A stretch of DNA of 36,090 nucleotides, taken from Sphingobacteriales bacterium (lineage in GTDB: Bacteria > Bacteroidota > Bacteroidia > AKYH767-A > OLB10). Shown here in pieces: positions 207 to 10,550 of this stretch. Positions within the stretch are counted from its first letter, which is position 1, and every line of letters begins with the position of its first letter. Below the pieces are notes generated by a model. The model did not search any database. It saw only the letters and a list, made by a program, of their open reading frames with translations, and was not told the DNA's origin. Location of the stretch: positions 1 to 36,090 of the forward strand of contig JAJTFW010000018.1 of the NCBI GenBank assembly GCA_021299095.1. Direction: 5' to 3'. Made by a program: the position numbers and the translations under genes.

Positions 207-713
207 TTAGCCCGGGTAGGCTATGCGTACGTGATAAATGCTGGCCAGCATTTTCTTGAAAATCTTCTTAATGACCGTAAGATCGCGAAAAGTGATGTCA
301 CAGTTTTCGAATTGACCGGCTTCCATCTGATGTCGTATGGTGCGCTCCACCACTTCTTCGAGCGAAGCAGCATCGTGTTGTGCCAGGCTTCGGGCTGTTG
401 CTTCCACTGAATCGGCCATCATGAGTACAGCGGTTTCCTTGGAGAAAGGCCTGGGTCCGGGATAGCGGAATGCATCTTCGTTGGGAACCTGATCGGGAAA
501 ACTCTTGATAAAGGAGTTATAGAAATACTGTACCCGCATGGTACCGTGATGGGTCCGGATGAAATCGATAATCACATCAGGAAGTTTGTGTCGACGGGCT
601 TTTTCGATTCCACGAATCACATGGCTTGTGATAATAGAAGCGCTCTCGTCAAACGAAAGTTCGTCGTGTGGATTCACCAAGGTGCTTTGGTTTTCGATGA
701 AGTACATGGGCAA
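207..713 (-). pseudogene. C-terminal fragment of 7TM-HD (PgpH-like) phosphodiesterase, separated by a frameshifting deletion
   Basis: This reading frame holds the distal part of a PgpH/YqfF-type HD domain. It starts PMYFIENQ, which in intact relatives directly follows the HDIGK motif. It continues with SHVIRG, the RTHHGT double-His motif and MMADSVEATAR, all normal metal-ligand positions of the 7TM-HD family, and ends in a conserved tail (VIKKIFKKML). Homology runs a few codons upstream of the first ATG (TEL before PMYF), so this is not an independent gene. It is the second half of the gene starting at 2058, now in a different frame. Intact family members hydrolyse c-di-AMP at the membrane. 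Without the HD dyad this fragment should be inactive, unless the break is an assembly error. Confidence 0.8.
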
Positions 714-2058
714 CTCGGTCTGAGTGCTGGAAGGTGCCGGGTGCTTTCAGGCTCATTTCGCGTAGGAGTTCCGAGTTAAAATCGGTAAGCTCCATGAGGG
801 TGAAATCAGAGGTGACACCGAACGATTTTTCAATGAAAAAAATGAGTGGATAGGCCAACAGAGTGAGCAGAGCATTGACCAGCAACCAGATTAAAACGGG
901 TAGATGAAAGGCATCCAGTCGACCCTCGTTGATCAGGGTGAGGCCGAAAAACGAGACCAAGTAGGCCATTAAAATGAGTCCTGCAGCCAAAAAAAGCTGT
1001 GATCGGCGATTCATGTTCACAATGCTGAAAATGGCCACCATTCCGGCCGTAACCTGCATGAACACGAACTCATATCCTCCAGAGGCAATGGCGCCAAGAA
1101 TCAGCATGGTGAGCACATGAGTGAACAGGGCAGTTCGGGTATCAAAAAACGCGCGGGTTACCAGGGGCAATATGCACAATGGCAGCATCATCATATTGAC
1201 CTTGCTGCTTCCCTGCGCCAAACTGTACACCACACATGCACCCACTACAAGTAGAATAAGTAGCGTCAGTTTACGGCTATCGAGTAAAATGTCACGACGC
1301 AACAACCACAAAAACGTGAGTAGCAGCGACAAGGCCGATATGACAATCACCAAATAGCCTGTGTAGAGAGCAGGTCTATAACGGTCTACGGTCTCATTGC
1401 CGCGATAAATTTTTCGCAGTGACTCCAACCGATCGAACACTTCTTGATCTACAACCTGTCCACTCCGTACGATCAGGCTCCCCTCCGCCACCTCACCCAC
1501 TACCGGACTCAGCAGCGCAAGCTGCTCATCCAGTAACTTTTGCGTAAGCTCCGTCTGTGGCTGCAAATCGGGCTGCAACAGAGGCATCAGCATCGACAAC
1601 ACGCTGTCGCGGCCACCGCTGAAACCATTCTGCAGTTGCCCCTCCACAAACAGAATCAGTGCGTCGCCCTGGAGGTGATAACCCGCCAGGCTTGATTGCA
1701 GCCCATCTGTTTGCAGGATGCGGATGGGTTGACGGCCTCCCAAACCACTCGCGGGGCCAGCCAGGACTCCTCGGTTGTATACTTGCTCAACCGTTTGTCG
1801 AAGGGCATTGCGGCTGGCAACCGGCCATTGCGCGAATTGCTCATCGATCCTCCGTAAAACCGAGTTTTCCGTCAGATTGTCCCGGCGGTAAACTACCGGA
1901 TGCTGACTCCGTATGGCCGCGCGCTCCGATTCGAGCCTGGCCGGCGATTTATAGACCGGATAACTGAAGGGGGCATTGAGGTCGGCATAGGCCCAAGGTT
2001 GGCCAATTCTGAAATTATATCGGAAACGCAGTTGCCGAGGCAGGATGAAGAGGTTCAT
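649..2058 (-). pseudogene. N-terminal fragment of 7TM-HD (PgpH-like) c-di-AMP phosphodiesterase
   Basis: From the ATG at 2058 (MNLFILPRQLRFRYNF) the frame encodes the family's extracytoplasmic region with the typical GQPWAYADLNAPFSYPVYKS segment. A block of about seven membrane helices follows (roughly residues 235-430 of this fragment). It then enters the cytoplasmic HD domain through the linker NSELLREMSLKAPGTFQHS, whose final His is the first metal ligand. Immediately after HS (about position 721) the frame becomes nonsense and stops at 649. About 30-35 residues, including the HD dyad, are absent, and the rest resumes in another frame at 207-713. An upstream extension of the open frame runs into the 3' end of rnpB and is not coding. 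A TACATTTG box ends 5 nt before the ATG. In intact form this would lower c-di-AMP. The call is a pseudogene or an assembly deletion. Confidence 0.8.
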
Positions 2059-2141: not shown

Positions 2142-2540
2142 GAATGAAACAGACCTGTAAGCCGGGTTCTGTATCCGCCGAAGCGGTGCCCGTCATTTAT
2201 CTGCGATGGCATTCACATACCACCTGAATCAGCCTACCCATCGGAGCCGGAAGCACCGAGGCACCTCCATTGGGCGGGCAGCCCTTCAACTCCGACCTAT
2301 TTGGCCTTTCAGCACACAAGGTTTTCCCGCAGCGGCATCACTGACGCTGCCGTGAGCTCTTACCTCACGTTTTCACCCTTACCACGAAACCACAAGGACT
2401 ACGTGGCGGTATTGTTTTCTGTGGCACTGTCTGTTCCCCGCAAATCGCTCTGCAAGGACCTTCCCGTTAGGAAGTGTGTCGCCCTGTGCTGCCCGGACTT
2501 TCCTCCCTCCGAAGAGAGCGACGAGCCGGTCTGCTTCCCT
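2142..2540 (-). ncRNA. rnpB: RNase P RNA (bacterial class A)
   Basis: The minus strand carries the diagnostic core of RNase P RNA. Near the 5' end is GAGGAAAGTCCGGGCA (P4 strand, around 2490-2510). Near the 3' end are ACAGAACCCGGCTTACAGGT (from about 2170 down) and CCAAATAGG (around 2297-2305). The two ends pair as the P1 helix: GAAGCAGACC (about 2537-2528) with GGTCTGTTTC (about 2156-2147). A TATCTTTG box sits 4 nt before the P1 5' strand, which supports the 5' boundary. This is the catalytic RNA that matures tRNA 5' ends. Length is about 400 nt, normal for class A. Open frames across this interval are spurious. The ends are uncertain by several nucleotides. Confidence 0.96.
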
Positions 2541-8346: not shown

Positions 8347-8925
8347 ATGAAACACCTGTGTCTGATCCTGCTTCTGCTTTTACTAGGTCCTGTTTCCGGA
8401 GATGCCTACCACATTGCTGGAGGAGAGTTGACCACGACCTGGGTTTCGGGAAACACCTATCAGGTGCGGCTGACCCTCTACCGTGACTGCACAAACCCCA
8501 ACGCCGCCTATTTCGATCCGACCATTATCATCGGGGCTTACGCGCGAAACGGCAATGTATTACTCGACACCTTCCACGTTGATTTAAGTACGGTAATCCC
8601 ACTCAGCCTCAGCGGTCCTAATTGTGCCACCCCTCCCAGCGGCTGTATGGAACAAGGCGATTACATCCGCAACATCAGCCTACCTGCCCAATCGGGGGGT
8701 GTCTATCTGGTTTGGGAACGCTGTTGCAGAAACAGTGCTGTTCTTAACATCAACCAGGCAGCGCTTACGCCTATGGTCTTTTTACACGACATGGCCGACC
8801 CTGCCTTGCAAAATTCCAGTCCGCAATTCACCAGTGCTCCTCTGCCCTACACCTGCGTCAACTCCCTGTTCCGTTTTCCCTTTACGGCAACAGACCCCGA
8901 TGGTGACTCGTTGGTATTCCGATGA
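8347..8925 (+). pseudogene. Secreted cell-surface protein, N-terminal fragment (frame broken at about 8918)
   Basis: A signal peptide (MKHLCLILLLLLLGPVSGDA) precedes a domain common at the N-terminus of large Bacteroidota surface proteins (YHIAGGELTTTW, LTLYRDC, VYLVWERCCRN). It then enters a cadherin-like loop, TATDPDGDSLVF. At this point the frame ends in FR-stop. Homologous sequence resumes directly in another frame (SINQASGLVEAFPTAPGLYA). Relatives have roughly 40-50 residues between DGDSLV and the INxxTGL segment, which are missing here, and the change of frame means the loss is not a multiple of three. Together with 8922-10550 this was one exported protein. Either a genuine pseudogene or a sequence/assembly deletion. 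Confidence 0.75.
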
Positions 8926-10550
8926 GCATCAATCAGGCAAGCGGATTGGTCGAAGCATTTCCGACCGCTCCCGGATTGTATGCCATGGCTGTTGACGTAT
9001 ACGAATACCGGAACGGAGTTTATCTGGGCATGGTTCGCCGCGAAATCGAATTCACGGTCATTCCATGCAATAACAACACCATTCCCAATCTGAACTCGGT
9101 TGTTCAAAATGCTAATTACGACATCTACGCATCCGACACGCTTTCTTTCCCCGTTGTGGCAATCGATCCGGACGGAGACTCGCTTTACCTGAGTTATTCC
9201 GGCGATGTTTTCCAAAACAGTCCTGCACCGGGGTTAGGACCGCCTTATGCGCTAACAAACGACACTTCCGGACTTGCCAGTATACAAGTTCCATTCTACT
9301 GGAGAACGGTTTGTGGACAAGAGCGAGATAGCTTGTACCGGGTGTTTTACCAGGTAAGGGATAACGGCTGTCCCTTACCGCTGACAAGCCTTGGAGAAAT
9401 CACCATCCGCGTTCGCGCTGTGCCCGACATACCAACCCCCAATTTACTTTGCATTACCATAAGCTCAACCGGAATCACGCTCACCAAGTCCGTTGAGAAT
9501 TCGATCCTACCCCGTTATTTCACGGGTTATACTGTGTACCGTAACACAAATGGCGGAGCGTATTCTGCGGTTGGACTGATTTCATCCCCTAGCCAGAATA
9601 CATACACCGACAACACAGCCATTACAGGTGCAGAGCACTGCTATTATCTTGTAGGATCCAATAGCTGTGGCAAACAAAGCGCACCCTCCGACACCTTGTG
9701 TAGCAGCGATGCATTTGATATTCCTTTGGTCGACTTACAGGTGGCCACCGTATTGGATGACCGACGCACCTTGATCCGGTGGAGTCCATTTCCGGATGGC
9801 CCCTTCGGCACCTACCTTGTCGAACGGAAAACAGATAAAACATCCTCTACGTGGTCGACGGCTTCCATACTGAGCACCTACTCACCCAATGAATGGAGCG
9901 ACGCTGACGTGCGCTGTGAATCGGAATCATACTGCTACAGGATTCGCTTTGAAGATGCTTGTGGAAACAGTGCCGGTTACAGCCGGGAAGCTTGCACCAT
10001 TTTACTTCAGGGAACTGCAGGCCCTTTCAACAATACCCTTACATGGTCAGCTTACAGGGACTGGCCTCAGGGAATCGCAGACTACCTGCTCATCAGGCGA
10101 ATTGCGGAGGGACCACCGGTCTTTGACCCGCTAATCAGCAATGGCCCGGCGGTATTGCGTTACGAAGACAATGACCTTCCGCCAAGCGGAGGTGCTCACC
10201 GTTACGCAGTGATTGCACGCGATCTTGGCGGAAACCTGGAAAGCCGATCGAATGAAGTAGAATTGGTTCAGGAACCCCTGCTCTTTGTACCTTCCGCCTT
10301 CAGCCCGAATGGCGATGCACTCAATTCCGGATGGGGTCCATCCGGAATTTTCGTGCGCGAAATCAATTGGACAATCATCGATCGCTGGGGACAAACTGTA
10401 TTCAACAGCCGAGAACTGAACGACCGATGGGATGGACGCTTTGAGGGACAAGATTGTCCGCAAGATGTGTACGCCTATACCATCACTTACACCGGACATC
10501 ACAAACCGGAAAAACAGATCCGGTCCGGCACCATCATGCTTCTGCGCTGA
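8922..10550 (+). pseudogene. Secreted cell-surface protein, C-terminal fragment with CHU_C/gliding-type T9SS domain
   Basis: This 542-residue frame continues the protein begun at 8347. It starts mid-domain (SINQASGLVEAF, then DVYEYRNGVYLGMVRREIEF) and has a second cadherin-like loop (AIDPDGDSLYLSYSGDVF). Two to three fibronectin-III-like modules follow at about 170-450, with Cys-containing strands such as GAEHCYYLVGSNSCG. The end is the gliding-motility-associated C-terminal (CHU_C, type B T9SS) domain: FVPSAFSPNGDALN, IIDRWGQTVFNS, WDGRFEGQDCPQDVYAY, ending GTIMLLR. Such proteins are exported by the type IX system and held at the cell surface or released. The frame has no signal peptide of its own, so it would not be exported if translated alone. 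rocD follows 38 bp downstream. Confidence 0.78.

Follow-up and report, generated by a model that had tools for sequence, protein, structure and literature searches.

The window, the whole 36,090-nucleotide stretch of DNA analysed here, carries near its beginning a gene of the 7TM-HD (PgpH-type) phosphodiesterase family at 207–2058 on the minus strand, which the translation of 200–2058 revealed to be broken out of frame. The 5′ part (721–2058, minus strand) runs in a first frame from MNLFILPRQ at 2058 to APGTFQHS, and comprises the extracellular 7TMR-HDED domain (PF07697, 2.3e-14, 54.4 bits, cut-off 27.6), the 7TM-7TMR_HD region (PF07698, 3.2e-24, 86.4 bits, cut-off 29.4) and the start of the HD domain. 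The 3′ part (207–710, minus strand) begins in another frame with PMYFIENQ, ends with IAYPG and the stop codon at 207, and retains the remaining HD-domain motifs, SHVIRG, RTHHGTM and MMADSVEA. There, PF01966 was matched at positions 50–115 only, just below its 22-bit cut-off (3.1e-4, 21.5 bits), and the NCBIfam HDIG model TIGR00277 at positions 47–83, also below its cut-off (7.9e-6, 25.7 bits, cut-off 27.6). As assembled, the gene holds the second half of the HD domain and no complete HD domain with its dyad, and in place of a single open frame of about 680–760 aa it consists of frames of 515 and 179 aa. The protein of a congener, in which PgpH is intact, matched the two parts with 53% and 80% identity, and neither match contains an internal stop. 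The arrangement is more than a chance juxtaposition of open frames, as the pieces adjoin and belong to one protein family. The RNase P RNA gene that adjoins the start of pgpH (bacterial class A, RF00010, 243 bits; 2142–2537, minus strand) looks ordinary.

We then compared the junction with the corresponding loci of relatives. The 5′ part found a match in 34 of 40 relatives, in every one within an open frame of 675–759 aa; 29 of these 34 loci were examined for spacing, and the motif search parsed 26, the three others being L010, L028 and L034. As a result, the distance from APGT to ENQ proved to be exactly 48 residues, with YHDIGK in between, in all 26 parsed loci. Only 10 nt (711–720, minus strand) separate the HS and PMY codons in the window, as against 35 codons (105 nt) in the parsed relatives, so that the net loss is 95 nt, which leaves a remainder of 2 when divided by 3 and takes in the HD dyad (YHDIGK). 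These results agree with the earlier note on this DNA, which had described the frame loss after APGTFQHS and the resumption at PMYFIENQ, had placed the HD dyad in the missing piece, had predicted the remainder of 2, and had found the other motifs intact and neither half otherwise decayed. The rest of the genome yielded neither the missing piece nor a second copy of the gene: PF07698 matched at a single place, and the whole protein of the congener matched the two pieces on contig C80 only. A scan of a genome collection, from which near-identical records may be omitted, returned no genome of the same species, the sole locus being that of a 37%-identical relative.

The product of 207–2058 is predicted, from its family membership, to be a c-di-AMP phosphodiesterase. 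It resembles the PgpH/7TMR-HD family (PF07697, PF07698 and PF01966) in its domains and in the motifs that flank the junction, and differs from it in being split over two frames and in lacking the HD-dyad segment. A Bacteroidota example of the family is PGN_0521 (pdepg) of Porphyromonas gingivalis (PMC9259658). Since 6 of the 40 relatives gave no 7TM-HD family match, including three that are 97–99% complete (G004, G016 and G028), the group evidently copes without the gene, which weighs against the assembly reading given below, as an actual loss in this genome would not be impossible.

Following the suggestion of the earlier note, the genome was searched for a c-di-AMP cyclase and for another phosphodiesterase. 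The profile search found one DAC-domain gene, a single open frame of 265 aa, which we take for a CdaA-like cyclase as predicted from its sequence. The DHH-family matches were a 576-aa frame, which is probably RecJ judging from its length, and a DhhP/NrnA-type phosphoesterase gene (L065, 2109–3214, contig C32, minus strand). A gene for a second predicted phosphodiesterase, as the note had asked for, is present, but it too is broken: the gene, inspected because of the c-di-AMP question, lacks the region of HHKPDGDA, its first frame stopping just before the motif and its second part being retained, so that both predicted c-di-AMP phosphodiesterases, of the 7TM-HD and the DhhP/NrnA type, are interrupted in the draft, which may be a coincidence. 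The absent motif reads [TP]H[HYQ][KR]PDGDA in all 11 relatives listed, and the gene was found in 24 of 24 relatives, in frames of 342–401 aa, four of them with one stop counted inside the match.

The window itself contains a second broken gene, at 8347–10550 on the plus strand, which encodes a secreted protein with a C-terminal type IX secretion domain. Its 5′ part (8347–8925) and its 3′ part (8922–10550, in another frame, with PF13585, CHU_C, near the end) meet at a junction at 8917–8918, where the net loss relative to the locus L041 is 169 nt, again out of frame. By accident, the two frames overlap in ATGA and mimic a two-gene operon. In 14 of 24 relatives the match lies in one open frame of 784–811 aa, while one relative (G015) has a 503-aa frame and nine gave weaker matches only; in all seven relatives compared directly, both parts fall within a single protein, with 50–57 residues between the matched parts.

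Five further genes in the sampled part of the same draft genome are interrupted out of frame, namely valS, ileS, lpxC-fabZ, the DhhP/NrnA-type gene described above and a glycosyltransferase gene. The breaks, those of the window included, are scattered, and the missing stretches that could be sized measure about 40 to 170 nt. The valS gene (L108, 2872–5431, contig C87, minus strand) lacks about 50 residues: its parts cover positions 2–390 of the family model and then from 427 or 442 to 861, and eight relatives have 49–62 residues between the matched parts. The second match holds two TAA codons and extends upstream past the open frame. The gene occupies a frame of at least 875 aa in 20 of 24 relatives, and in the remaining four it is partial (G009 and G024), divided over two frames (G011) or not among the matches listed (G002). 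In G011, valS lies in two adjoining frames (C158:26459–29034) whose model coverage overlaps (2–339 and 331–861), as by a point frameshift. The matches in our own genome besides valS, among the seven of nine that were listed, were ileS on contig C25 and another synthetase on C39. The ileS gene (L118, 263–3582, contig C25, plus strand) is broken near its C-terminal part; its two frames, 911 and 201 aa long, cover positions 11–809 and 841–1009 of the MupB profile, whereas the corresponding matches of the valS search lie in single frames of 1104–1196 aa in 22 of 24 relatives.

The lpxC-fabZ fusion gene (L071, 3716–5069, contig C61, minus strand) is split inside LpxC, and positions 1–236 and 237–462 of the bifunctional family model fall in separate open frames, of 257 and 232 aa. 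Its counterparts of the same genus read DREISQ[ED]KLD[ED]LA.LFNKP followed by V[KR]EKG in one frame, while our genome is without the middle, about 38 nt; of 24 relatives, 23 have the whole gene at 463–505 aa, and the remaining one shows a frame of 147 aa close to the start of a contig. The glycosyltransferase gene (L066, 4667–5901, contig C32, plus strand) is split between the models of its two domains, in the C-terminal one, its second frame beginning at position 49 of Glycos_transf_1. In addition, a gene for a TPR protein (L063, 15216–18202, contig C72, plus strand) seems to be broken out of frame close to its start, where the first part is without a family match. Contig C72 also bears the only run of N in the sampled sequence of this genome, five N at C72:61498–61502 (L062, 1498–1502), which could mark a gap in the scaffold or masked sequence. 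The run sits in what we take to be a uracil-DNA glycosylase motif before DPYHG.

The breaks were sought in a census of 507,396 bases, made up of the window and stretches of seven other contigs chosen for HD, DAC or DHH matches; it detects frame-shifting breaks only, whereas an assembly fault would be expected to cause in-frame losses too, and its counts give no rate of breaks and no complete inventory of them. Pairs of open frames were scored with our own hexamer score, the threshold being at least 25 for both members, and were flagged when the nearest ATG was more than 30 nt away from the upstream end. In the first 299,957 bases, 121 pairs of neighbouring open frames on one strand overlapped or touched; both scores reached the threshold in 100 pairs, of which 24 were flagged. 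The flagged pairs outside the window numbered 23; 15 were scanned with Pfam and 8 were left out. One (lpxC-fabZ) proved to be split within a single family model, and a second (the TPR-protein gene) looks split, although no family matched its first part. Nothing suggested a single gene in the other 13, most of which joined two different families, while some had one member unmatched and one was a tandem FKBP pair. In the second set, of 207,439 bases, 56 pairs passed the threshold and 16 were flagged; six were scanned, with one split (valS), and ten were left out. As a control, the same scoring of 115,143 bases from relatives returned 16 pairs, nine of them above the threshold and two flagged, neither of which was scanned with Pfam. 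The ATG filter misses breaks such as that of the second window gene, the breaks in the DhhP/NrnA-type and glycosyltransferase genes were found by reading the open frames, and that in ileS came to light in the valS search.

The draft consists of 93 contigs with a total of 2.51 Mb, and is rated 96% complete and 1.4% contaminated. A free-living bacterium cannot do without valyl- and isoleucyl-tRNA synthetases, and LpxC-FabZ acts in the synthesis of lipid A and of fatty acids. Because the joint loss of ValRS, IleRS and LpxC-FabZ is incompatible with a living cell, the gap in pgpH points to a cause in the assembly. Indeed, similar breaks occur in unrelated genes of one assembly, essential ones among them, and since the breaks are short, the genes unrelated and the fragments on either side in good agreement with relatives or family models, the simplest reading is that stretches were dropped at joins. 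We thus consider, with a probability of about 94%, that pgpH is whole in the organism and that the draft omits short stretches at scattered joins, one of which would fall in the HD motif of pgpH; such joins might arise, for example, where two contig ends were merged across an unsequenced gap. The earlier note had left the choice between an inactivation of very recent date, with a rise of c-di-AMP to be expected, and a deletion in the assembly. Its second option is supported by the similar breaks in the other window gene and in the five genes elsewhere, valS, ileS and lpxC-fabZ included, and its first option found no support, as nothing sets pgpH apart from the other broken genes.

An actual recent 95-bp deletion that inactivated the phosphodiesterase and raised c-di-AMP, the other breaks being independent assembly faults, would accord with the one junction and the lack of other decay, with the relatives that do without the gene altogether and with the retained cyclase gene. 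However, six other genes in the draft are similarly broken, three of them essential, and background joins suffice to account for the gap without a biological event, so we regard such a deletion as very unlikely. Moreover, even a real loss of pgpH would not by itself predict a rise of c-di-AMP in this phylum, because the 7TM-HD gene of P. gingivalis is reported to support, and not to lower, the c-di-AMP level (PMC9259658). We consider it highly improbable that both predicted c-di-AMP phosphodiesterases have really lost their active-site segments out of frame while the CdaA-like cyclase was kept, which would mean a life without the usual breakdown of c-di-AMP.

The several broken genes and the genome size, 2.51 Mb as against 2.9–3.2 Mb in three congeners, could also be read as real decay throughout a degenerating lineage, with pgpH as one case. 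The smaller size, however, may reflect incompleteness or the same omissions, the fragments still fit their family models well, and the joint loss of valS, ileS and lpxC-fabZ is not expected in a living cell, so that decay on this scale is scarcely credible. We likewise give next to no weight to the joining of the two pgpH frames at translation, by a programmed frameshift or bypass, into a dyad-less protein acting as a sensor only: the frames are well preserved on both sides of the junction, yet all 34 relatives with a match have one open frame, and the mechanism would have to operate in valS, ileS and lpxC as well, whose enzymes would also lose parts.

The gap in pgpH is therefore almost certainly a mistake of the assembly and not biology. 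Assembly errors are reported to create false pseudogenes, with the assembler, the sequencing platform and the coverage named as causes (PMC11017572). Our case resembles those described there in that frame-breaking faults hit genes that are whole in relatives and are spread over unrelated genes of one draft, and it differs in that short stretches are missing here, whereas the faults described in that report are frameshifts and internal stops (PMC11017572). No direct or inverted repeats of at least 10 nt were found at the two junctions in the window, which speaks against slippage or repeat collapse there and points to no particular assembler fault. We also considered that contigs might break at DNA common to co-occurring species. 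This fits pgpH, whose absent segment is among the most conserved (33 of the 626 windows scored are equally or more conserved), but not the DhhP/NrnA-type gene, lpxC-fabZ or the second window gene, whose absent segments are not among the most conserved (the figures for the three genes tested being 97 of 285, 276 of 410 and 606 of 707), and the idea was dropped.

These results call for caution, since neither the lack of a catalytic motif nor the splitting of a gene in this draft genome can be taken as biology. Despite the completeness rating of 96%, users of the draft would wrongly record ValRS, IleRS, LpxC-FabZ and the two predicted c-di-AMP phosphodiesterases as lost.
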